Shown in pieces: positions 45,070 through 59,870 of a DNA stretch of 64,000 bases. The stretch spans positions 2,170,001 to 2,234,000 of the forward strand of contig NZ_AUKG01000001.1 of NCBI RefSeq assembly GCF_000424625.1, in the 5' to 3' direction. A program made the position numbers and the translations under genes. This DNA comes from Conexibacter woesei Iso977N (GTDB lineage: Bacteria; Actinomycetota; Thermoleophilia; Solirubrobacterales; Solirubrobacteraceae). Numbering within the stretch: the first letter of the stretch is position 1; the number at the start of each line of letters is the position of its first letter. The notes beneath the pieces were generated by a model that worked only from the letters and a program-made list of their open reading frames with translations, was not told the origin of the DNA and made no database searches.

Positions 45070-46839
45070 TCACCCGCAGTCGCTCGTCACCGCCCCGTGG
45101 CTGCCGGCGCTCCCTTCGCCCATCACGGCGCCGTCGGGCGGTGAGATGTAGCCGGAGCTGCCCTTCAGGCGCTTGAGGTGGGGGTCGAGGTAGTGCCGGC
45201 GTTGGCGGAAGATGACCGGTGGCAGGTCGGCGTTGATCAGCAGGCCCTCGCCCGCGGTCGTCCGCTGCAGCGCCTGGGAGGTCATGACGTCGACGGGGAA
45301 GCCGGGGCCGGCCTCGCCGATCAGGCGCTGGCGCTGGCCGAGGAGCTGGACGATCTCCTGCCGCGTGTGGTGATCGGTGATGGACCCCATGAAGACCTTC
45401 GCCTGCGACAGCGCCAGGATCTCGGCGGCCGCGTCGTCGCCGAAGTGGCGCCGGATCTGCGCGACCGAGTGCCACACGGTCAGGAACCGCGCGCCCGAGC
45501 CCAGCGACGTCGCGAGGATCTGCGGCAGGTCCTGGATCGGCGCGATCGACGCGGTCTCGTCGAGCGCGAACAACGCCGACGGCTTGAGCCCCTGCCCGGT
45601 GCGGTTCTCGCGCTCGCTGAGGTAGAACAACATGGAGGAGATCATCGTCACGACCAGCGGCGCCAGCATCTGCTGGTGCTCGCGCCCCGCGACGATGTAG
45701 AGCGTGTTGGGCCCGTCGAAGAGCACCTCCGGCGTCATGCCCCGCGCACGCTTCGCGGTCCGCGCGGCGGCCGGGTGGCCGTAGGCCTTCAACTGCACCG
45801 CGGCGGTCCCGATGATGCCGTCGCGCTGGCGCTCGGTGTACGCGTAGACCGCCTTCAGCCGCTCGCGCGCGTCGTCGGCGCCCGCGTCCTCGAGGATGCC
45901 GGCCGCGGTCTTGACGTCGCGGATGAGGATCCAGCGGTAGACGCCCTCGGCGGTGATGTCCGGCGTCAGCGCCGCAGCGTGGAGGTAGGGTGCGACGAGG
46001 CCCTCGGCCTCCTGGTCGAAGTAGTCCTGGTTGGGCCCCTCGCCGATCCGCCGCGCATGCCCGAGCCAGCGCGCGACGAGCAGCGCGTGCTCCCAGTCCT
46101 CGCAGCCCTGCAGGAGGTCCCAGTCGTCGCTGTCGCGGCCGAACGGGTCCCAGACCCACACGCGCCCGAGGCGGCGCCGCCGCGCGAGCGTGTGCTCGGC
46201 GACGTCGGTGCGAACAGAAGTCGTCACCACTGGGCCTTCGTGCTCCAGCAGCGATGGGATCACGAGGCCGGAGCTCTTGCCCGTCCGCGGCGCGGCGACG
46301 ACCGCCATCTGGACCGAGTCGGTGATCGCCACCAGCGAGCTGGGCCGCGCGACGTTGCCGACGATCACGCGATCCGGCGACGGCCCGTCGACGAGCAGCT
46401 CGCCGATCGTCCGGTAGCGGCCGAACTCGTGTGGCCGGCGACCGCGGAGGTGCCACCAGCGCCGGTCGGCGGCCGGCCGGCTCATCCGGATCTCGGCCGC
46501 CCGCGCGGAGGCGACGAGCAGCGCGCACTGCAACAGCAACAACAACGCGGCGGTCGTCCAGAAGCCGGTCGCGCCGGGCAGGAGCGCGCGGGTCGCCTCT
46601 GGGTATGCGCCGGCGGGGTCGCCGGAACGCAGTGCGGGATCGGCGAGCGCGCGACCGGCGTCGACCGCGCTCGGCCCGGCGACGCGACCGCCGTGGACCC
46701 ACGACGCCACCACCGGCGTGCCCCAGACGAGCACGACGAGCATCCCGATCGTCAGCAGGAACGCGGCGCCGACCGCGGCGACCGCGCGGGGGTCGGCGCG
46801 GCCGGGGGAAGAGCGGCGGGGCTGGGCGACGAGGGCCAT
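45070..46839 (-). CDS. TraG/VirD4-type conjugative coupling protein
   Basis: The 589-residue protein has two N-terminal membrane helices (about residues 18-46 and 90-112) and a cytoplasmic ATPase with Walker A VAAPRTGKSSG near residue 185 and Walker B ALFALDETASI near residue 425, plus VWDPFGRDSDDWDLL and FLTVWHSVAQIRRHFGD. This is the T4CP pattern; the protein links the relaxase-DNA complex to the secretion channel. The MobF relaxase gene lies 10 kb downstream on the other strand. No other channel genes (VirB4, VirB6) are in the window. It is preceded by a small membrane protein gene. Confidence 0.9.
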   Translation of the reverse strand: MALVAQPRRSSPGRADPRAVAAVGAAFLLTIGMLVVLVWGTPVVASWVHGGRVAGPSAVDAGRALADPALRSGDPAGAYPEATRALLPGATGFWTTAALLLLLQCALLVASARAAEIRMSRPAADRRWWHLRGRRPHEFGRYRTIGELLVDGPSPDRVIVGNVARPSSLVAITDSVQMAVVAAPRTGKSSGLVIPSLLEHEGPVVTTSVRTDVAEHTLARRRRLGRVWVWDPFGRDSDDWDLLQGCEDWEHALLVARWLGHARRIGEGPNQDYFDQEAEGLVAPYLHAAALTPDITAEGVYRWILIRDVKTAAGILEDAGADDARERLKAVYAYTERQRDGIIGTAAVQLKAYGHPAAARTAKRARGMTPEVLFDGPNTLYIVAGREHQQMLAPLVVTMISSMLFYLSERENRTGQGLKPSALFALDETASIAPIQDLPQILATSLGSGARFLTVWHSVAQIRRHFGDDAAAEILALSQAKVFMGSITDHHTRQEIVQLLGQRQRLIGEAGPGFPVDVMTSQALQRTTAGEGLLINADLPPVIFRQRRHYLDPHLKRLKGSSGYISPPDGAVMGEGSAGSHGAVTSDCG

Positions 46840-47158: not shown

Positions 47159-47270
47159 CTGGTCAGCGACGGTACGCGCGGACGCCCGGCAGGGCCATCC
47201 GACTGCCCGATCGGGGTGATCGCGAATCCGCGTGGCGGAACCCCCGCGCACACGCATATACCTTCGCGCG

Positions 47271-48449
47271 ATGGCCACCCCCGACGTCCACGGCTTCGTC
47301 GCCCCCGGCTTCGAGCCCGTCCGTTCAGCGTTCCGCGACAACTTGATCGAGCGCGGCGAGCAGGGCGCGGCGTTTGCCGCCTACCGCGACGGCGTGCCGG
47401 TCGCCGACCTCTGGGGCGGGGCCGCCGACGACGCCGGGACGCCGTGGCGCGAGGACACGCTGCAGCTCGTCTTCTCCGGCACGAAGGGGTTCGTCGCGCT
47501 GTGCCTGCTGATGCTCGCCGACCGCGGGGTGCTCGACCTCGACGCGCCGGTCGCCGACGTCTGGCCGGAGTTCGCCGCGCACGGCAAGGACGCGGTCACG
47601 GTCGCGGAGCTGGCCTCGCACCAGGGGCGGCTCCCGCGCTTCACCACGCCGGTCGGCCCTGACGACTACACGGACGACGTCCGCCTGGCCGGCCTCCTGG
47701 CCGACCAGCCGCCGGACCCGGACCCGCGCGCCGCCGACGTCTACCACGCGTTCACCTACGGGTGGCTCTGCGGCGAGGTCGTCCGGCGCGCGGCCGGGCG
47801 CGACGTCGGGACGTTCTTCGCCGAGGAGGTCGCGGGTCCGCTCGGGCTCGACCTCTGGATCGGCCTCCCGCCCGAGCACGAGCCCCGTGTCTCGACGCTG
47901 CGCTACGCGCCCGCGCCGGGGTGGAGCGGCGGGCCCGCAGGCGACCCGGCGGCCGTCGCCGCCGACGACCTCCGCGCCGGCGTCTGGGCCAACCCGCCGG
48001 TCTTCCCGCCGGACGGCATCCCGTGGAACCGCCCGGACTGGCACCGGGCGCAGATCCCCGGCGCGGGCGCGATCGGGACCGCACGGTCGATCGCCCGCCT
48101 CTACGCCTGCCTCGCCCGCGGCGGCGAGATGGACGGCGTCCGGCTGCTCTCCGCCGCCACGCTCGCGGCCGGCACGGCCGAGCGCTCCCGCCGTCGCGAG
48201 CCGCTGCTCGACGAGCCGGTCGCCTTCGGCGTCGGCTTCCAGCGCAACACCGAGCGCGAGCCCTACGGCCCGGCCCCGGACGCGTTCGGCCACGGCGGGG
48301 CGGGCGGCTCGTGCCACTGCGCGTGGCCGTCGCGCCGCGTCGGGTTGTCCTATGCGATGAACACGCTGCGCGATGACGAGCTCGTCGACCCGCGCGCCCA
48401 GGCGCTGATGCGCGCGCTGTACGCGTGCCTGGAGGCCGATGACGGCTGA
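47271..48449 (+). CDS. Serine hydrolase, beta-lactamase/esterase (EstB-like) family
   Basis: The 392-residue protein has the penicillin-binding-type nucleophile motif S-x-x-K in FSGTKGFVALCLLML (about residue 75), a Tyr in YHAFTYGWLCGEVVRRAAG and the third motif FGHGGAGGSCHCAWP near the end. The long VSTLRYAPAPGW-type insertion matches cytosolic EstB/LpqL-like esterases rather than secreted beta-lactamases, and no signal peptide is seen. Its last 11 bases overlap the transposase-fusion gene, so they are coupled. The role in the mobile element is unknown. Confidence 0.85.
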   Translation: MATPDVHGFVAPGFEPVRSAFRDNLIERGEQGAAFAAYRDGVPVADLWGGAADDAGTPWREDTLQLVFSGTKGFVALCLLMLADRGVLDLDAPVADVWPEFAAHGKDAVTVAELASHQGRLPRFTTPVGPDDYTDDVRLAGLLADQPPDPDPRAADVYHAFTYGWLCGEVVRRAAGRDVGTFFAEEVAGPLGLDLWIGLPPEHEPRVSTLRYAPAPGWSGGPAGDPAAVAADDLRAGVWANPPVFPPDGIPWNRPDWHRAQIPGAGAIGTARSIARLYACLARGGEMDGVRLLSAATLAAGTAERSRRREPLLDEPVAFGVGFQRNTEREPYGPAPDAFGHGGAGGSCHCAWPSRRVGLSYAMNTLRDDELVDPRAQALMRALYACLEADDG

Positions 48450-51087
48450 CGCCGACAGCGCCGCCGCGGAGCTCCCGCGCGCCCTGCGGCTGCTGTCCGC
48501 GGCGCTGAGTCCCGACGACCAGCTGCTGTTCACGCAGCTCAGCCGGATGTCGGTGCGCGACCTCGAGGCGGTGAGCAAGGCCTACAAGTTCGCCGGGTAC
48601 GACGTCCCGGTCGTCACGAAGTCGGTCGGCAGCCGCCACCTGCAGCGGATCGGCGACCTCCTGCTCGACGAGCTCGGGCGCGACCTCAGCGACCTCGACC
48701 TCGCCGCGATCGTCATCGACGGCACGCCGGTCGGCGAGCACACGATGGTCTGGGCGCTCGGCGTCACGAGCGACGGCCTCAAGATCCCGCTGGGGATCGG
48801 CTCGGGCCCGACCGAGACCAAGGAGGTCGTGCGCGCGCTGCTCGACGACCTCGGCGCGCGCGGCCTGCACGCGCCCGACGCGCTGTGGCTGACCGACGGC
48901 GGCCCCGGGCTCATGAGGGCGATCGAGGAGTACACCAACGGCCTCGGCGTCAACCAGCGCTGCGTCGTCCACAACGCGCGCAAGGTGATCGAGCGCCACC
49001 TGACGGTCGCGGACCGGGTCGCGCTCGGCCGCCACCTGGTCGACGACCCCGACGAGAGCCACAGGGTCGCCGCCAAGCGCCGCGAGAAGCTGGCGGCGAT
49101 CCGGGCCGCGCAGGCGGCCGATCCGGAAGACAAGTCCCTGGTCGACGAGGAGCGCAAGCTGCTGCGCGAGATCGGCGAGGTCGGGGTGCGCGCGGGGCTG
49201 TACGCGGCCTGGGACGAGCCGGGGCTGGCGGTCGCCGAGGCGCGGCTGGTCGGCGAGGCGAAGTGGCTGGAGCAGATGGGCCATGGGTCGGCGTCGACCT
49301 CGATCAGGGGTGCGATGGAGGGGACGCTCACGCTGCAGCGGCTGGGGGTCGCCGGGGACGAGAAGCTGCGCAAGCTGATGCGCACGACCAACGTCATCGA
49401 GAGCGTCCACCAGCTCGTCAGCGTCGTCGGCGAGCGGCCCAACCGCTGGACCGACGTCGACATGCGCCGCCGCTTCGTCGTGCTGGCGATCGCACGGGCG
49501 GAGCTGGGCTGGAGGCCGCTGGCGGAGCGCGCGCGGCTGGAGCAGCTGACGCGCGCGGTCTTGCAGTCGCGCCATCCGGCGGTCGAGCTGGAGGCGGGCG
49601 GGGCGTACGGGCCGGACGTGGACCCGGACGCGCTCGTGGTCGCGCGCGCGGCGCTGGACCCGGCGGTCTACGCGGTGGGCGAGGGCGGCGAGCGGCTGGA
49701 CCAGATGGTCGGCGAGCTGGCGCAGTGGGCCGACCGCAACGGCAAGCCGCTGGTGTTCGCGCCGGGGGCGCTGGACCGGGCGCCGGACCCGGAGGCGCGG
49801 CGGCGCGTGCTGGCGGACCTGGGGTTCGCCGTGGGCGAGGGCGGCGCGCTGACCCGGGCACCGGCCGGGCCGCCGGACCATGCGGTGGCGCGCGACGCGC
49901 ACGCGGTCCGGGCGCGCGACCCGGAGTCGGCGCTGGCGCTCCTGCACGACGCAGCGGGCGGCGACGCGCGGCTCGTGGCCGTCGTCGCCGAGCGCGCGCT
50001 CGCGCACGTGCCCGACATGGTGGACTTGGGTGTCGAAGAGCTCGAGCGCGAGGCGGCCGAGGGGCTGCGCACCGCGCACCGAGACGTCGCCAGCGCACAG
50101 GAGCGGATCGCGGCGTGGTGGCGCGACGGCGGCCACGACGCGGCGGCCCGGCACATGGCGCTGCGGCCCGATGCGCTGGCCGGCGGGCGCGGGCAGGTGC
50201 TCGACGCGCGGCAGGCGGCGTGGATCGCGGGGCGCGCGGCGGTGCGGCGCGAGGAGCTGGCGCGGGCGGCCGTTCCGGAGGAGCGCCTGGAGGCGTACAG
50301 GCGCGAGAGCGCCGCGGCGCTGGCGCCGGTCGACGCGGTCGTCGGCGACCTGGACCGCGCGGCGCGAGCGGTCGCGGCGACCCACGTCCTGGACGCGCAC
50401 GCGCGCATCGAGGCGGCGACGCGGGAGGTCGAGGCGGCGCGCGGGGCGGATGGGGCGGACGCCGCTGAGCCCGTCGTCTTGGCCGCGGAGGAGACCACGC
50501 CGGTGCAGCGGCGCCGCAGCGCGCTCGGTGACCGCCGGGCCGACGCGCTGGCGCGTGGGTCCGGGGCGCTGGGCGGGCTCCTGCGCGACCTCGACGACGA
50601 CGTGGTCGTCGCGCTGCGCGACGGTGCCGGCGACCCGTGGGCGGGCTTCTCCGCGGGCGACGCGCGCAAGCTGCGCGGGCTGGAGGAGCGCGACCGCGGC
50701 GCCTTGTTGGAGGACTACACGGGCGCGCTGCGCACCCGGACCGAGCTCGACGGGCAAGCCCGCGGAGGCGACGGCGGCAAGGCGGTGCGGGCCGCGGCGG
50801 AGCGGGGCGCGCATGCGGCGGACGCGGAAGCGCAGCGGCTGTGGGAGCGGCTGGACGGCGTCGACGCCGAGGCTGCCGAGCTGCGCACCAAGCCCGGCAG
50901 CCTCGAGCGCCTGATGACCGAACGGCCCGGCGTCGCCCTGCACGATGCCGCCGGCGCCGAGGTCTCCCGCCGCGCCCTGGAGCGCGGCCCGGCGATCGAG
51001 CCCGGCGAGATCGGCGCGCTCGCCCAGGGTCGCGAGACGGCCGGGGCGGCGGTCGAGGCGGCCGCCGACCTCGGCGCCGGCCTCTAG
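48439..51087 (+). CDS. IS256/Mutator-type transposase domain fused to a ~500-residue Ala-rich domain
   Basis: The 882-residue protein has a full DDE domain in its first 365 residues: Asp94 in IVIDGTPVG, Asp153 in LWLTDGGPGL, the family motif NQRCVVHNARKVIERHL (about 172-188) and Glu321 in MRTTNVIESVHQLV. Normal IS256 transposases end near residue 400. Here about 500 more residues follow in the same frame: highly charged, Ala-rich, mainly helical, with no known domain, ending AAVEAAADLGAGL. The adjacent MobF relaxase ends AAESAVDLGGAGL. Start overlaps the esterase gene. No terminal inverted repeats typical of an insertion sequence are evident around it. Confidence 0.8.
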   Translation: MTADADSAAAELPRALRLLSAALSPDDQLLFTQLSRMSVRDLEAVSKAYKFAGYDVPVVTKSVGSRHLQRIGDLLLDELGRDLSDLDLAAIVIDGTPVGEHTMVWALGVTSDGLKIPLGIGSGPTETKEVVRALLDDLGARGLHAPDALWLTDGGPGLMRAIEEYTNGLGVNQRCVVHNARKVIERHLTVADRVALGRHLVDDPDESHRVAAKRREKLAAIRAAQAADPEDKSLVDEERKLLREIGEVGVRAGLYAAWDEPGLAVAEARLVGEAKWLEQMGHGSASTSIRGAMEGTLTLQRLGVAGDEKLRKLMRTTNVIESVHQLVSVVGERPNRWTDVDMRRRFVVLAIARAELGWRPLAERARLEQLTRAVLQSRHPAVELEAGGAYGPDVDPDALVVARAALDPAVYAVGEGGERLDQMVGELAQWADRNGKPLVFAPGALDRAPDPEARRRVLADLGFAVGEGGALTRAPAGPPDHAVARDAHAVRARDPESALALLHDAAGGDARLVAVVAERALAHVPDMVDLGVEELEREAAEGLRTAHRDVASAQERIAAWWRDGGHDAAARHMALRPDALAGGRGQVLDARQAAWIAGRAAVRREELARAAVPEERLEAYRRESAAALAPVDAVVGDLDRAARAVAATHVLDAHARIEAATREVEAARGADGADAAEPVVLAAEETTPVQRRRSALGDRRADALARGSGALGGLLRDLDDDVVVALRDGAGDPWAGFSAGDARKLRGLEERDRGALLEDYTGALRTRTELDGQARGGDGGKAVRAAAERGAHAADAEAQRLWERLDGVDAEAAELRTKPGSLERLMTERPGVALHDAAGAEVSRRALERGPAIEPGEIGALAQGRETAGAAVEAAADLGAGL

Positions 51088-51505
51088 GCCGACCTCGACC
51101 TCGTAGGGACGGGGACGCCGTCCGCCCTGGCGGCGGACGAGCGTTTGACAGACAAGACGGACGCCGTTGGCGTCAAACCCCTCCGGTGGTTGCGGTCCGT
51201 GCGGAAGGGCCGCCCGCCGAGGCAGCGCGAGCGCGGGACATCGCCGCCTGGCGATGTCCCGCGCTCGCGCTGCCTCGGCGGGCTCCGTGCGTGGGTGGTT
51301 GCGGTCGGGAAGGTCGCGGCCCGCCGCGGTGCGGGAGCCCGTTGGCGGGGGACATCCCCGACTGGGGACTGTCCCCTACCCGAGCCGGAAGGATCTAGGC
51401 GAAGGGGGTTGACCCACCGGTGAGTGACAGGGTTGGATCGGTGGGTGACGAACCGACCCGCAGTTGTACGGGTTGGTGCCGATTCGAGAAGGACGGAGGA
51501 ACGGC
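51088..51505. other. Non-coding region rich in inverted repeats
   Basis: No gene is seen in these 418 bases. They hold GTCCGCC/GGCGGAC (near 51119-51138), GTTTGAC/GTCAAAC (near 51144-51180), the 34-bp hairpin at 51212-51283, a nested GGGGACATCCCC/GGGGACTGTCCCC structure (about 51347-51375) and CCCACCG/CGGTGGG (about 51414-51446). A GGAGGA ribosome site for the next gene is at the right end. Such density suggests an origin, recombination site or transposon end. Confidence 0.6.
51212..51283. repeat. 34-bp perfect inverted repeat with 4-base loop
   Basis: Bases 51212-51245 are the exact reverse complement of 51250-51283, with loop GCCT between. The arms begin GCCCGCCGAGGCAGCGCGAG. A palindrome of this length is far beyond a normal terminator and would form a strong cruciform or hairpin. 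Confidence 0.85.
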
Positions 51506-53023
51506 ATGGGGACGATTGCCGTTCAGGAAGTCGGGGAGGCGTTGCAGTTGCGCGCCCCCGAGTTGTTGGGGTTCACCGGGACACCGGGCGGCGCGGTCGC
51601 GCTGACCGACAAGGCCGGAGCCCTGTTCGAGTTCGCGGCGGGCATGGCGGGCGGCCGGGACCTGACCCCGCGCGACGTGATGAACGTGGGCTCGGTCGCC
51701 AAGCCGTACGTGGCGGCCTGCGTGTTCGTGCTGGCCGAGATGGGGATGGTCGCGCTCGACGCGCCCGTGTCCGCCTACCTGCCGTTCGCGCTGGTCAACC
51801 CCGTGGGCGGTCCGGCCGTGACGCTGCGCCACCTGCTGACCCACACCGCCGGGTTCGCCACCGACACGTTCGACGCGTCGTGGAGCCGTGAGACGCGCTA
51901 CTACGAGCGGGAGTTGGAGGCCGGACGCACGCACGAGTACGACGGCGTGCGGTTCCGCTGGGCCGACAGGGCGGGCGAGCGCTACATCTACTCCTCGTTC
52001 GGCGTGGGGCTCGCCGGGCGGGCGGTCGCGCATGTGCTCGGCAAGCCCTTCGGGCAGTGCGTGCATGACCTGATCCTCGGCCCGCTGGGGATGCAGGAGA
52101 CGGCATGGCCGGACGGTCCCGGCTGGGACGACATCGCCGCGCGCCGGGTGCCCGGCCATCTGCGCGTCGGCCCCACCACGTTCACGGCCCCGATGGTCAC
52201 CTCCGGGAGCCCGGAGGCGTGCGAGTTGGTGACGAGCCCGGCCGATCACCTGCGGTTCCTGCGGGCGCTGTGGAACGCGGGCGAGACGGGCGACGGCGGG
52301 CGGGTGCTCAGCCGTGACAGCGTGACCGCGCTTCTGTCACCGCAGGTGAAGAACATCCTGTTCGGGCTGGACCTGGGCTGGATGGGCCACAGCGTGCAGT
52401 TCCGCAACAACGGGCAACCGGACTTCTTCTGGGGCCACGGCGGCGGCTTCCCGTTCCAGGGGTGGGCTGAGTCACGCGTGTACCCGGAACTGGGGTTCGC
52501 CGGGGCGGCGTTCGATCGCAAGTGGGAGGTCTACCGCCACATCGACCCGCCGGACGCCGTGTTCGCCGGGATCGTGCTCGACTGGGCCGCGCGCTGGATG
52601 CGCGACGGCGCGGTGCCGCCGAACCGCCTGTCGCTGGCGAACGCGTGGCCGTACGCCGTGGGGCTGATCGTGGGCGAGCGCTACGTCGGGTCGCTGGGCC
52701 TGCACATCGTCACGGACGAGGCATTGCACACGCTCGTCAAGGGGCGCGTCACCGAGGATGACGCGCGGTTCGAGGACTGGGACGAGGGCCAGTTCCGCGA
52801 GGGCGTTCACGCGATGGAGCGGACCGGGGGCGACCCTGAGCGCATCGCGGCGGTGCTGGACGACCCCGCTTCTCCGGTCGGCCGCGAGGAGATGGAGATG
52901 CTGTCGCTGGCGTGGGGCGCGGCGCGACCGACCGACATGGTGTTGGTGCGCGGCCTGGCCGACCGGTCCGGCGTCCCAGCGCAGTTGCAGCACCTCGCGC
53001 CCTACGACCGGTCCGCACGATGA
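51506..53023 (+). CDS. Serine hydrolase, beta-lactamase/transpeptidase-like family
   Basis: The 505-residue protein has S-x-x-K in NVGSVAKPYVAACVFVL (about residue 75), Tyr in RYIYSSFGVGLAGRAVA and HGG in FFWGHGGGFPFQGW. The N-terminal 380 residues form the catalytic domain; the C-terminal 125 residues (FEDWDEGQFREGVHAMERT...) are an extra helical part. No signal peptide is seen, so it is probably cytosolic. It is unrelated in detail to the esterase at 47271. ATG at 51506 has a GGAGGA site. It heads a five-gene coupled operon and overlaps the HAD gene by ATGA. Confidence 0.85.
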   Translation: MGTIAVQEVGEALQLRAPELLGFTGTPGGAVALTDKAGALFEFAAGMAGGRDLTPRDVMNVGSVAKPYVAACVFVLAEMGMVALDAPVSAYLPFALVNPVGGPAVTLRHLLTHTAGFATDTFDASWSRETRYYERELEAGRTHEYDGVRFRWADRAGERYIYSSFGVGLAGRAVAHVLGKPFGQCVHDLILGPLGMQETAWPDGPGWDDIAARRVPGHLRVGPTTFTAPMVTSGSPEACELVTSPADHLRFLRALWNAGETGDGGRVLSRDSVTALLSPQVKNILFGLDLGWMGHSVQFRNNGQPDFFWGHGGGFPFQGWAESRVYPELGFAGAAFDRKWEVYRHIDPPDAVFAGIVLDWAARWMRDGAVPPNRLSLANAWPYAVGLIVGERYVGSLGLHIVTDEALHTLVKGRVTEDDARFEDWDEGQFREGVHAMERTGGDPERIAAVLDDPASPVGREEMEMLSLAWGAARPTDMVLVRGLADRSGVPAQLQHLAPYDRSAR

Positions 53024-53946: not shown

Positions 53947-54588
53947 GTGCCGATCTTGATTGGCGCGGGGGTCGTGTTGGTGGGCGTCGTGGTGTGGCTG
54001 GCGGCGTGGGTGGTCCGGCTCCGTCGCCAGCTACGCGGACGCGAGCGCCAGTTCCGCGACCTGGACGAGTACGGCCGGAGGGACATGCTGACCGGGCTCG
54101 CCAACCGAGCGGAGCTGTGGCGGGAGTTGAAGAAGGCGATGCGTGCCGGTGAAGACCGGTGCGCGTACCTCTTGGACCTCGACGGGTTCAAGTGGGTGAA
54201 CGACACCATCGGTCACCCCACGGGCGACCGGGTGTTGTGCACGGTGGCGAACCGCCTCCGTGCCACCGTGGAGGCGGGCGCGCTGGTCGCCCGCCTCGGC
54301 GGGGACGAGTTCATGGTGTTGGACGTGCCGGGCGGCTGCTTCGCGGACGCGGTCGCGTCCGTGTTCGACCGGCCGGTGTCCGAGTACGACGGCGTGCCCG
54401 TGAGCTTGGGCGCGTCCGTGGGCCGCGTGTGGCTGAACGACTACCGGTCGGTCACAGGGCTCATGAGCGCGGTAGACGCCGCGCTCTACCAGGCGAAGGA
54501 CCGCACCGACCGTCACGGGGACGCACGCCGGGGGCGCGTGATCGTTCATGACGCGTTGGGCCGACACAGGGAAGGGCAGAGAGTCTGA
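53947..54588 (+). CDS. Membrane-anchored GGDEF-domain protein (diguanylate cyclase)
   Basis: The 213-residue protein has one N-terminal helix (GAGVVLVGVVVWLAAWVVRL) and a single GGDEF domain: RRDMLTGLANRAEL, LLDLDGFKWVNDTIGHPTGD, VARLGGDEFMVL and ALYQAKDRTDRHG. The active A-site GGDEF is intact, so cyclic-di-GMP or a related dinucleotide could be made; no RxxD inhibitory site is evident right before it. GTG at 53947 is the start. There is no sensor domain apart from the membrane helix. Confidence 0.85.
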   Translation: MPILIGAGVVLVGVVVWLAAWVVRLRRQLRGRERQFRDLDEYGRRDMLTGLANRAELWRELKKAMRAGEDRCAYLLDLDGFKWVNDTIGHPTGDRVLCTVANRLRATVEAGALVARLGGDEFMVLDVPGGCFADAVASVFDRPVSEYDGVPVSLGASVGRVWLNDYRSVTGLMSAVDAALYQAKDRTDRHGDARRGRVIVHDALGRHREGQRV

Positions 54589-55883: not shown

Positions 55884-56120
55884 CACAATTTCGGCCCCCG
55901 CCCATGTGTCAGTTACGGTAACGAGTGGGGGGTCGGCCCGTGGGCCTGCCCGGGGCGCAGCCCCGGACACGTCCCGGTCCGGGGCGAACACGCCTTGTGG
56001 CGCAAGGGCTCACGGGTCGATCCTCCTTGGCGGCTGCGGGGCACGCGATGCGTGCCCCGCAGCCGCGACAGACTATACGGACGCGTTCGGAATTTGTGTT
56101 ACAGTGCGATTCGGTTCGTC
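55884..56120. promoter_or_regulatory. Candidate oriT region before the relaxase gene
   Basis: This gene-free stretch has several ordered inverted repeats: CTGACACA/TGTGTCAG (about 55880-55912), GTTAC-G-GTAAC (55912-55922), CGGGGC-GCA-GCCCCG (near 55960-55974) and a 17-bp perfect hairpin GCGGCTGCGGGGCACGC with loop GAT (56030-56066). Relaxases usually nick next to such repeats, and oriT often lies just upstream of the relaxase gene. A TATACG box near 56074 may be part of the relaxase promoter. Confidence 0.5.
56030..56066. repeat. 17-bp perfect hairpin upstream of the relaxase gene
   Basis: GCGGCTGCGGGGCACGC (56030-56046) is the exact reverse complement of 56050-56066, with loop GAT. No run of T follows, so an oriT or origin role is more likely than termination. 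Confidence 0.7.
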
Positions 56121-59100
56121 GTGCTCACGCTCCAGAAGATCGTCATCGTCAGCGGCGACCAGGACGCCGCGCACCGTGCCGCCCGCTATGTCGTCGACCG
56201 CGACGAGGCACCCGGCCAGTACGTGCCGGCGTCCTATTGGACGAGGTCCGAGCCCGGCCTGCCGGAGGGCGCCGAGCGTGCGCACACGATGTGGCTCGGC
56301 GACGCGCAGGTGCTCGGGCACTACGGCGTTGAGCGTGGGGCGGAGGTCGCCGAGGCGGACCTGGAGCGCGTGCTCGTCGGCCGTCACGCGCAGACCGGTG
56401 AGCAGCTGCGACCGGCTGGGAACCGCCGCGTGGACAAGCTCGACGAGCGGTCCCGTGAGCGCCTGGAGCGCGCCGGCTACGACAAGCGGACGGTCAAGGC
56501 GTTCGCGAACGTGGACATGACGTTCTCGGCTCCGAAGTCGGTGTCGGTGCTGTGGAGCCAGTCGTCGCCGGAGGTGCGGGCCGCGATCGAGCAGGCGATG
56601 CTCGAGAGCGCGAACGCAGCGGTCGGTCACATGACGAAGACCAAGCCGGTCGTGGACTGGGGCACGAAGCGGCCGCCGGACCAACGCCATGATGTCGCTC
56701 GGGGCTTCGGCGCGTCGAGCGCGCTGCACGTCACGGCACGGCGAGCGGCGGCCGACGCGGTGCCGGCCCCGCAGCTGCACGTGCACTCGGTCCTGTTCGG
56801 CGTCCAGCGTTCCGACGGCGAGGTCGTCGCACCGGCCTCGTCGGGGATGTTCCGCAAGGACGCGGCGCTCGAGGGCGGCGCGGTCGGTCGGCTGGTGCTT
56901 GCGGACCGGCTCGTGGCGATGGGCTTCGAGATCGAGTGGACCACCGGCCGCAAGGGGCGCTTCTTCGAGGTCGTGAGCGTGCCCGAGGCACTGCGCGCGG
57001 CGATGTCCCCGCGGACCGACGAGGTCGAGGCCGAGAAGCGCGCCTACGAGCGGCGCACCGGCGAGGAGGCGAAGGGCGGTGCGGTGCCGCGCTTGGCGAC
57101 CGACACGCGGCAGCCCAAGGACCATGACGGGACGCCGCCCGAGCTGGTCGCCGAGACGTGGCTTGCGCTCGGGCAGGAGCACGGCTTCGGGCCGATCGAG
57201 GCGGCGCTGCTTGCGCAGCCGGGCCGGGAGCGCGCCCCGTTGGCGGCCCGGCGTGCGGTCGTGCGTGAGCTCGCGCTGGCGCGCCTGGCGGCGAACGGCC
57301 CGACGGTCTCGCGCGGCACCGCGGCGGCGATCGTGTACGAGTCCGGCGCCGGCCGCATGGACTACGAGGAGGCCCACGCGCTGCTGCAGGACATGGAGGC
57401 CGCCGGGGATCTGCTGACGCTCGCCGGCGAGCAGGTCACGACCGCACGCATCCGCAGGGCCGAGGAGGACGTCGTGCGCGTCGCCGAGGACGCAGCCGGC
57501 GACGACGGCCCGGGTCTTCCGGCGGAGGCGGTCGCGGCGGGCATCGCCGAAGCGGGCGAGCGCCTGCCGGGCGACTTCACGCTCGACGATGAGCAGCGCG
57601 CAGCGGTGGCGATGCTCACCGGCCCGTCTCGGTGGACGGTCCTGACCGGGCGTGCGGGGACGGGCAAGGGCCCGACGCTGGACGCGGTCGGCGCCGCGTT
57701 CCGGACCGAGGGTTGGCAGGTCATCGCGGCGGCGGTCGACGGAACCACGGCTCAGCGTCTCGGCGAGCAGACCGGAGGCAACACCTACACCTTGGAAGGG
57801 GTGCGCGCCTCGGTCGAGGCCGGGGTCCTGCGGATCGATGACAGGACGCTGATCCTGATCGACGAGGCGAGCAAGGTCGGACTCGAGCACTGGGGCCTGA
57901 TCGCGGGGTGGATCGAGCGTCACAAGGCGCGCCTGGTCGCCGTGGGTCACGAGGGGCAGCTCGGGGCGATCGAGCTGCCGGGCATGTACGCGGAGATGCT
58001 CGTGCGCCGGGACCGCATCCCGGTCGCGGAGCTGTTCGAGATCCGCCGCCACCGCGATCCCGACGACCGCTCCAGGATCCACCCCTGGCTGCGCGACTAC
58101 CAGGTGCTCCTGGACAGGGGCGAGGCCGAAGCGGCGGTTGCGCTGCTGCGCGAGCACGACGCGATCCAGCTGCTCGACACCCGGGCCGAGGCCGTCGAGG
58201 CGATGGTCGAGGACTGGGACCGCTGGCGCCGGAAGTACGAGGCGGATGAGTCGATCCTGATCGTCCACGGGTCCAACGCGGACGTCGACCACGTCAACCG
58301 CCTGGCTCAGGCCCGGCGCCTCCAGGGGTCAACCCCGGAGCTGACCGGCAAGGGCATCCCCGCGGTCGATCGGGACTACCTCCTGTACATCGGCGACGCG
58401 GTGATCCTGCGCGAGGCGCCGTACGAGGTCCCGCGCGCGCCCGGGGCACCGCGCGAGCGTCGTGTCGAGAACGGGCAGACGGGGATCGTCGTGGATGTCG
58501 ACCACGGACGCGAGACGGCCGACGTCCGGATGCGCGACGCCGGCGGCGGGGAGCGAACGGTCCGGTTCGACCTCGGCGCGCTTCGGGACGAGCGCGAGAC
58601 GTCGGGCACGGGGCGTGTCCCGTCACTGCGCCTGGCCTACGCCAGCCACACGTACCCGGTGCAGGGCGCGTCGCTGCTCGGGACCGGCGCGCTGACCGGG
58701 CACTGGTCCCAGGGCAAGGAGGGGACCTACGTCGCCGACACCCGCGCGATCCTCGAGCACCACGCGTACGGCTCCCGGGAGGACCTTGGGCTCGACGGCA
58801 CCGACGAGGATCGCTTCGGCCGCTACGCCAGGAGGATCGGCCGGACCCAGGCCCGGAGCGCGAGCATCCGCCTGCCGCTGGACCCGACCGCGAGGATCGC
58901 CGCGCACGGTCCGGCGCGATCCGAGCCGGTGCCTCAGCGGGCGGTGCGGGAGCGGCCCGTGCAGGAGGCCGCCGCGACGGTGGAGCCCGAGGCGCAGCGT
59001 GCGGAGCGGCCGGCGGCGCGCGTCGTCACGCGCGACGACGTCAGCCCCGTGCCCGACCCGGCGCAGGAGCTGGTCGACGTCCTCGGGCCCGACCGGGCCG

Positions 59101-59870
59101 ACGCCATGGGGGTCGCCTCGCACGACCACGACGAGCGCGTGCGGCGCGCCCCCGAGCCGTGGCTGACGGCGCGCGGGCACGAGCTGGACGCCGTCCTGCG
59201 GACGCTGGACCGCGGCTCGGCCCGGGCGACGCTGCGACGCGAGCGCGACCGTGCCGCGGCGGCCGAGCTGGTGGAGGCCGCGCAGCGCGCCGCGGCGGAG
59301 CTCGACGCGCAGGCCGCCGAGCTGTCCGGGGTGCGCAACCGGGGCGAGCGCCGCGATCTCGAGGCGCGGGCCGCGACCCAGCGCGCGCTGGCCGCACGGG
59401 ACGCCGAGCGCCTGGCCGGCGTCGCCGATGCGCCCGGGACGACGGCCCCACTCGACGCCTGGCTGTCCGAGCACGGCGACCGGGTCGCCGAGTGGGTGGC
59501 CGTCCGGCGCGAGCAGGCGGTCCGCCGCGAGGTCGAGGTCGGCAACGCCGTGGAGCGCGCGGTGGTCGAGCCGCCCGCGGCGGTCGTCGACCGCGTCGGC
59601 CGGGCACCCGCGGCGGGGGCACCCGAGCAGGCCGAGTGGGAGGACCTGGTGCGCGCCACCGAGCGTGAGCGCGTCGGCCGGACGGTCGCAGCGCGCGATC
59701 AGGTCCCGCACCGCGGCCTGGACGCGCCCCAACGCGCCGCGCTCGACGCGCGCGTGGACGCGTTCCGCGAGGCCCACGGCATCGAGACCATCAACAACGC
59801 CGCGGAGGTCGCCACCGGCGTCGAGCGCGCGGCTGAGAGCGCCGTCGACCTCGGCGGTGCCGGGCTCTAG
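56121..59870 (+). CDS. MobF-family (TrwC/TraI-like) relaxase-helicase
   Basis: The 1249-residue protein has an N-terminal relaxase domain with DMTFSAPKSVSVLWSQS near residue 134 and the metal motif QLHVHSVLFG near 218. A superfamily I helicase follows, with Walker A GRAGTGKG near 509, Walker B LILIDEASKVG near 575 and a late LAYASHTYPVQGAS motif. Walker A has Gly where Ser/Thr is usual after Lys; I recall this form from actinobacterial members, but it may lower ATPase activity. The last 350 residues are charged, Ala/Arg-rich helices ending AAESAVDLGGAGL. GTG 56121 gives VLTLQKIVIVSG as the start; in-frame upstream starts would run through the hairpin. Confidence 0.9.
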   Translation: MLTLQKIVIVSGDQDAAHRAARYVVDRDEAPGQYVPASYWTRSEPGLPEGAERAHTMWLGDAQVLGHYGVERGAEVAEADLERVLVGRHAQTGEQLRPAGNRRVDKLDERSRERLERAGYDKRTVKAFANVDMTFSAPKSVSVLWSQSSPEVRAAIEQAMLESANAAVGHMTKTKPVVDWGTKRPPDQRHDVARGFGASSALHVTARRAAADAVPAPQLHVHSVLFGVQRSDGEVVAPASSGMFRKDAALEGGAVGRLVLADRLVAMGFEIEWTTGRKGRFFEVVSVPEALRAAMSPRTDEVEAEKRAYERRTGEEAKGGAVPRLATDTRQPKDHDGTPPELVAETWLALGQEHGFGPIEAALLAQPGRERAPLAARRAVVRELALARLAANGPTVSRGTAAAIVYESGAGRMDYEEAHALLQDMEAAGDLLTLAGEQVTTARIRRAEEDVVRVAEDAAGDDGPGLPAEAVAAGIAEAGERLPGDFTLDDEQRAAVAMLTGPSRWTVLTGRAGTGKGPTLDAVGAAFRTEGWQVIAAAVDGTTAQRLGEQTGGNTYTLEGVRASVEAGVLRIDDRTLILIDEASKVGLEHWGLIAGWIERHKARLVAVGHEGQLGAIELPGMYAEMLVRRDRIPVAELFEIRRHRDPDDRSRIHPWLRDYQVLLDRGEAEAAVALLREHDAIQLLDTRAEAVEAMVEDWDRWRRKYEADESILIVHGSNADVDHVNRLAQARRLQGSTPELTGKGIPAVDRDYLLYIGDAVILREAPYEVPRAPGAPRERRVENGQTGIVVDVDHGRETADVRMRDAGGGERTVRFDLGALRDERETSGTGRVPSLRLAYASHTYPVQGASLLGTGALTGHWSQGKEGTYVADTRAILEHHAYGSREDLGLDGTDEDRFGRYARRIGRTQARSASIRLPLDPTARIAAHGPARSEPVPQRAVRERPVQEAAATVEPEAQRAERPAARVVTRDDVSPVPDPAQELVDVLGPDRADAMGVASHDHDERVRRAPEPWLTARGHELDAVLRTLDRGSARATLRRERDRAAAAELVEAAQRAAAELDAQAAELSGVRNRGERRDLEARAATQRALAARDAERLAGVADAPGTTAPLDAWLSEHGDRVAEWVAVRREQAVRREVEVGNAVERAVVEPPAAVVDRVGRAPAAGAPEQAEWEDLVRATERERVGRTVAARDQVPHRGLDAPQRAALDARVDAFREAHGIETINNAAEVATGVERAAESAVDLGGAGL

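Follow-up and report, generated by a model that had tools for sequence, protein, structure and literature searches.

DDE transposases drive few of the known families of integrative and conjugative elements (ICEs), and the way in which such elements align their transposition with conjugation is an open question. In TnGBS and in the ICEs of Mycoplasma, DDE transposases of the Mutator superfamily take the place of phage-type integrases and work via circular intermediates, which IS256 also uses (PMC3942029). In the p-MULT survey of these enzymes, those of TnGBS and the Mycoplasma ICEs belong to p-MULT 3 and p-MULT 5, and insertion sequences were the only elements seen to carry IS256-type (p-MULT 1) enzymes (PMC3942029). 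An IS256-family transposase of known structure is TnpA of ISCth4 (PMC7780238), and relaxases are known to carry signals for recruitment to type IV secretion systems (T4SSs) (PMC5826034). Among the titles and abstract openings listed for searches of the open-access literature on transposase–relaxase fusions, relaxase signals, and ICEs in Solirubrobacter, with subscription papers outside the scope, we found no description of a protein of the kind analyzed here.

Here we analyze a gene for such a fusion in a 64,000-nucleotide stretch of the Conexibacter woesei Iso977N genome (contig NZ_AUKG01000001.1, positions 2,170,001 to 2,234,000; hereafter the window, whose coordinates are used throughout). 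The gene (48439–51087, + strand) runs as a single open reading frame (ORF) from an ATG start and specifies 882 residues, in which an IS256-type DDE transposase domain is followed by a relaxase-derived extension. This architecture is conserved in three genomes, always together with a single subfamily of MobF relaxases; the DDE residues and the CxxH motif are intact throughout, and the relaxase residues are lost in the two homologues. The best explanation in our judgement, which we hold tentatively and which falls somewhat short of being probable, is that the fusion is the DDE recombinase of an ICE, linked to the relaxosome or the T4SS through its relaxase-derived tail.

The transposase domain and its reading frame

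The N-terminal part of the protein (residues ~27–384; 48517–49590, + strand) comprises a helix-turn-helix (HTH) and an RNase H-like DDE domain, as judged from alignment, a predicted model, and a Foldseek search. In the DNA, the DDE triad is encoded on the + strand at 48718–48720 (D94), 48895–48897 (D153), and 49399–49401 (E321), and the CxxH motif (C175xxH178) lies within the sequence NQRCVVH. In an alignment of 12 sequences, including ordinary IS256 proteins, D94, D153, E321, and H178 are invariant and C175 is nearly so. The predicted model has a confident RNase H-like core, with a predicted local distance difference test score (pLDDT) of ~90 across most of residues 75–330, and its best Foldseek matches are structures of the ISCth4 transposase (6xgx and 6xg8; E ~1e-6, TM scores of 0.5–0.6 normalized by target). 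Among the Pfam models, Transposase_mut alone matches the fusion protein (residues 96–185, E 8e-9), and NCBIfam returns weak IS256/IS1249 matches and nothing else.

Two homologues have the same build. With the extension as query, 399 genomes of the class yielded G125 (E 2.3e-8; 979 residues), encoded on contig JAFDWF010000093.1 of a metagenome-assembled genome (MAG) of Actinomycetota isolate SZAS-14, and a two-sequence profile searched over the order found G124 (E 7.7e-67; 1016 residues). Each is one long protein with an IS256 domain and then the same extension, and the window fusion is ~35–41% identical to them. The DDE triad and the CxxH motif are retained in all three proteins at only ~25–37% identity between the domains. 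As to whether the fusion arose once or repeatedly, the DDE domain of the window protein does not group in a tree with those of G125 and G124, and a single clade was not rejected (approximately unbiased test, p 0.199). The extension as a query gave no match in plasmids, viral contigs, genome contigs, or 100 relatives. Weak matches to L077 (an HD-GYP-type protein), L078, and L195 were judged to be due to chance, and a long open frame in G044 (L015) that looked like a relative is actually a separate 455-residue IS256-like gene.

On sequence grounds, the fusion protein is not an ordinary member of the IS256 family, because both its whole-protein score and its N-terminal domains set it apart. It reaches 83.3 bits with the NF033543 model, and G125 and G124 reach 116.7 and 90.9 bits, all below the curated whole-protein score of 150 bits. 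Relative to IS256 proteins, ~80–95 N-terminal residues are absent, which correspond to the dimerization domain and a portion of the subterminal DNA-binding domain, and the HTH is kept; in the IS256 model, which has 338 positions, the window protein begins at about position 73. G124 begins at position 26 and retains nearly the entire IS256 N-terminus.

An initial reading of the letters and their ORFs (hereafter the first-pass annotation) had described a single frame at these coordinates with intact DDE residues and NQRCVVH motif, and this is borne out. It had also allowed that homologues might reveal two separate genes, joined by a frame fusion unique to this genome, which the build of G125 and G124 contradicts. 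Across the whole ORF, the GC content is 0.93–1.0 at third and 0.41–0.60 at second codon positions, and both values shift at the stop codon; since they keep to these ranges in frame through the whole length, the C-terminal half is encoded in frame with the transposase domain. The fusion gene is the sole Transposase_mut match in the 5.7-Mb genome, where no second copy of the extension was found either. That an ordinary IS256 copy became fused by accident to a flanking gene and is now decaying is highly improbable: the N-terminus is indeed shortened and IS256 relatives are common in the order, but the same fusion is found in two other genomes at the identity given above, its frame and catalytic residues are intact, and its tail is shared.

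Relaxase origin of the extension

Beyond about residue 380, the protein has no match to any Pfam, NCBIfam, PHROGs, or PADLOC model, and the first-pass annotation had credited it with about 500 further residues of no known domain. Profile comparison with hhalign corrects this, the extension being relaxase-derived and not, as had been considered, a plain structural repeat. In G125 and G124, the segment that follows the DDE domain is colinear with the MobF relaxase domain (E 6.5e-16, probability 98.6), and a relaxase hidden Markov model matches G124 with an E value of 3.3e-11, far over shuffled sequences. By visual inspection at the margin of the match, the ARY motif of MobF, which contains the catalytic Tyr, has become ARW in G124 and TRW in G125, and in the alignment of the two homologues the first His motif has changed from ALH to ALQ or VLM, and HVH to RVS or RIS. 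Since the catalytic Tyr and all three HUH histidines are lost, the nicking chemistry is, to judge from these residues, gone from the middle domain of both proteins. Pfam TrwC does not recognize this dead relaxase domain.

The corresponding middle region of the window protein (residues ~385–560; 49591–50118, + strand) appears to be a trimmed counterpart of the dead domain, from its position in the alignment only; a relaxase match is not detectable in the trimmed window protein itself, and the homology is seen in G125 and G124. A low-confidence model of the middle domain (pLDDT 51), which was built with MobF rows, matches 3l57 (Z 7.3, root-mean-square deviation 5.6, 152 residues aligned) and 8a1b (Z 7.1, root-mean-square deviation 4.8, 149 residues aligned), both of them among unrelated folds, and a Foldseek search with the low-confidence model of the middle and C-terminal regions returned nothing significant.

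Further downstream, all three fusions share a helical C-terminal module (residues ~683–850; 50485–50988, + strand). Comparison with hhalign shows it to be a homologue of the C-terminal end of MobF from the same elements, with an E value of 3.3e-7 and a score of 57.5, where 20 column shuffles reached no more than 17.7; two-sequence tests likewise support this relationship. Compared with a MobF relaxase, the fusions are devoid of the helicase domain and have the DDE domain placed in front.

The window protein ends in the tail ...AAADLGAGL (51046–51084, + strand), which resembles in sequence the tail of the window MobF, ...SAVDLGGAGL. The tails of the three fusions read DLGAGL, PVGIGA, and DVGTGIGL, and those of MobF read DLGGAGL in the window, DLGLEAGI in G124, and GTGVGV in L102, a locus on contig JAAYBF010000173.1 of a Solirubrobacterales MAG. 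A loose Gly-hydrophobic tail motif, which was picked after the sequences had been viewed, occurs in 25 of 67 MobF proteins and 59 of 536 other long ORFs, suggesting that it is enriched in MobF. Such a tail may be a transfer signal. Quite unlikely is the more specific proposal that the C-terminal module and tail together form a docking signal for the coupling protein or the T4SS, through which the recombinase would be bound into the relaxosome, ride with the single strand into the recipient, and integrate the element there. The MobF proteins that end in a Gly-hydrophobic tail are from loci L099–L178, with examples such as GLDLGL, GMDMGL, and DLGLEAGI.

Genetic setting and candidate origin of transfer

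The fusion gene is situated, as the first-pass annotation had it, between the genes for a coupling protein and a relaxase, and overlaps a serine hydrolase gene. The coupling protein is a single-copy TraG/VirD4-like type IV coupling protein (T4CP; 45070–46839, − strand; PF02534, E 8e-21), and the relaxase is a MobF relaxase-helicase (55995–59870, + strand, with a likelier start near 56121; PF08751, E 2e-41; PF13604, E 2e-36). The serine hydrolase ORF (47232–48449, + strand; PF00144) shares 11 bp (48439–48449) with the 5′ end of the fusion. Besides the fusion, the interval from TraG to MobF holds several metabolic or signaling genes. The element extends beyond the window, with a VirB4-like ATPase, a TrbL-like protein, and a transglycosylase 15–21 kb downstream of MobF, up to position 81105.

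The same MobF subfamily is found in all three genomes with a fusion, the MobF of the window being 39% identical over its length to that of G125. In G125, a short MobF (402 residues) and the full MobF flank the fusion, with an adjacent T4SS operon that includes VirB4, TrbL-like, and lytic genes. In G124, the fusion adjoins the gene of a small conserved protein, and MobF and a short MobF are located ~35 kb away on the same contig, on which no T4SS gene was detected. The conjugation module of the first-pass annotation, with its MobF and TraG, belongs to a larger element that has its T4SS genes past the end of the window. In L102, MobF and a short MobF are convergent and 40 bp apart, with no fusion between them. 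Elements of this MobF family may thus carry the fusion or not, and all three copies found, a small number, belong to the family.

Sequence features of the kind expected of an origin of transfer (oriT) are located next to both the fusion and MobF. Starting 125 bp after the fusion stop codon is a perfect hairpin with 34-bp arms and a 4-nt loop (51212–51283), the only perfect hairpin with arms of at least 18 bp in 324 kb of the genome's own sequence. Hairpins with arms of at least 24 bp number just two in 2.0 Mb of other loci; one is in G124 and one in L102, each ~300 bp upstream of MobF. A second hairpin (GGGACATCCCCGACTGGGGACTGTCCC; 51349–51375) is found only in these elements: the sequence, GGGACATCCCCGnCTGGGGA..., comes next in all four of them, with a degenerate form in L102, and occurs nowhere else in 2.33 Mb of loci. 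The third part, upstream of MobF, is a hairpin with 17-bp arms (56030–56066), after which stands the nic-like motif ACAGACTATACGGA (56068–56081, + strand; candidate MobF site CAGACTATACGGA). CAGACTA(G/T)A occurs just upstream of MobF in all four elements, with CAGACTA invariant. A copy of the nic-like motif, ACAGACAAGACGGA, also precedes the first hairpin (51148–51161, + strand), and is weak evidence alone, being one of nine matches in the window at three mismatches where 4.7 are expected. The first two parts, together with this motif copy (51148–51375), stand beside the fusion, and the third with its motif (56030–56081) beside MobF, with ~4.6 kb of other genes between. From its sequence, this arrangement of hairpins and then a short motif ahead of a relaxase gene looks like an origin of transfer. 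The cis-module as a whole, i.e., the long perfect hairpin, the second hairpin GGGACATCCCCGnCTGGGGAnTGTCCC, and the CAGACTA motif before MobF, is common to the four MobF elements. A match of the second hairpin in a viral contig is due to chance and falls within a portal-like gene, and Rfam microRNA matches to the long hairpin are below the gathering score and merely reflect its perfect stem.

We also searched for the ends of a mobile unit. The best pairs of terminal inverted repeats with 8–9 bp target duplications around the element are no better than those of random regions, and none flanking the fusion gene rise above the control level. An empty-site comparison with genomes of the same genus found only a BrkB gene in common within the stretches fetched. 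The proteins scanned from 36.7 to 82 kb include no tyrosine or serine integrase, the ends of the element not having been located. The first-pass remark that no integrase is seen holds for the scanned proteins; that the fusion might take this role was its suggestion.

Two other explanations bear on this setting. It is unlikely that the fusion is a passenger transposase that homes to oriT DNA or the relaxosome through its relaxase-derived part and inserts into conjugative elements. A preference for conjugating DNA is known from TnsE of Tn7, and a dead relaxase domain could still bind an oriT hairpin; moreover, the fusion has oriT or relaxase genes as neighbors in the window and in G125, is absent from the corresponding place in L102, and is not adjacent to MobF in G124. 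However, the window gene is present in a single copy in its genome, ends and target duplications are not found around it, and the overlap with the serine hydrolase leaves no space for an end immediately upstream. Somewhat unlikely, too, is a domesticated transfer factor that no longer transposes, namely a relaxosome subunit or regulator whose relaxase-derived part would bind oriT hairpins and MobF or the T4CP, and whose DDE domain would serve for nicking or only for binding. The dead relaxase residues, the candidate oriT adjoining the window fusion, the lack of inverted repeats, and the loss of the repeat-reading N-terminal domains in the window protein and G125 are all consistent with such a factor, but that three divergent proteins all retain the complete DDE triad and CxxH speaks for catalysis, and G124 keeps its N-terminus nearly whole.

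Several further features of these elements were recorded. The small conserved protein mentioned above is ~60% identical in all three fusion-bearing elements, where it adjoins T4SS genes or the fusion; in window coordinates, past the end of the window, it is encoded at 72132–72617 (L092:8135–8617, −), has no Pfam match, and carries the pattern EGLPDR...DFS.WADG.AW.FVRGEDY.S.TE.FRY.IRRWA. A sigma-like protein is encoded nearby at 70741–72084, likewise past the window end. Short, helicase-less MobF proteins (~400–417 residues) are found beside the full MobF at L082:8669–9874 (−), L102:9626–10876 (−), and G124 C60:68243–69463, with an intact HUH motif in the L082 and L102 copies; none was found in the window region scanned. 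Two serine hydrolases of the β-lactamase fold (47232–48449 and 51464–53023) lie on the same strand on either side of the fusion, and the cargo between the fusion and MobF includes a GGDEF diguanylate cyclase gene (53947–54588).

Proposed role and comparison with known systems

In the explanation that we favor, an ICE recombinase tied to the transfer machinery, an IS256-like transposase would have acquired the C-terminal body of one of the element's MobF relaxases. The relaxase chemistry of this body is dead in the homologues and trimmed off in the window protein, with the helical C-terminal module and tail retained. The DDE domain would perform excision and integration by circle-forming IS256-type chemistry, and the relaxase-derived part would anchor the enzyme at the relaxosome, oriT, or the coupling protein, and might permit its travel to the recipient. 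DNA recombination as the activity, the element as its substrate, and tethering or translocation by the extension are what we infer from these features. The first-pass annotation had suggested a domesticated transposase with a role in transfer or integration; the conservation of the fusion, the kept catalytic residues, the co-occurrence with MobF, and the lack of an integrase among the scanned proteins agree with it, whereas a search for terminal repeats and target duplications found none.

Several observations weigh against this explanation. Its main weakness is that no ends are detectable, in a search that has low power because random regions of this 73% GC sequence give equally good pairs. 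Furthermore, by alignment, neither the window protein nor G125 has the N-terminal domains with which ISCth4 recognizes its subterminal repeat, the fusion of G124 is far from MobF on a contig with no detected T4SS gene, and the arrangement in L102 shows that a member of the family can do without the fusion. If the explanation is true, the enzymes that drive ICEs would include members of the IS256 branch and would be found in Actinomycetota, a phylum with few descriptions of such elements. A DDE recombinase fused to a dead relaxase from its own element suggests that transposition and transfer may be physically and directly coupled.

Compared with ISCth4, the window protein has the same RNase H-like fold, DDE triad, CxxH motif, and HTH, but it lacks the dimerization domain and much of the subterminal DNA-binding domain, has a long C-terminal extension, is present in a single copy, and has no terminal repeats that could be found. 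Compared with MobF relaxases of the TrwC/TraI type, the fusions have a homologous middle domain (in G125 and G124) and C-terminal module, whereas the catalytic Tyr and HUH motif are lost and the helicase is absent. Among ICEs, the closest likeness is to those of the TnGBS type, in that the transposase is encoded together with a relaxase, a T4CP, and a T4SS in the window and the 20 kb beyond it, and with MobF and a T4SS in G125. Unlike the enzymes of TnGBS and the Mycoplasma ICEs, the window enzyme is nearest to IS256 (p-MULT 1) and carries a relaxase-derived extension of ~500 residues. On this reading, the element would be an ICE that a DDE transposase drives, and its enzyme an unusual one of that kind.

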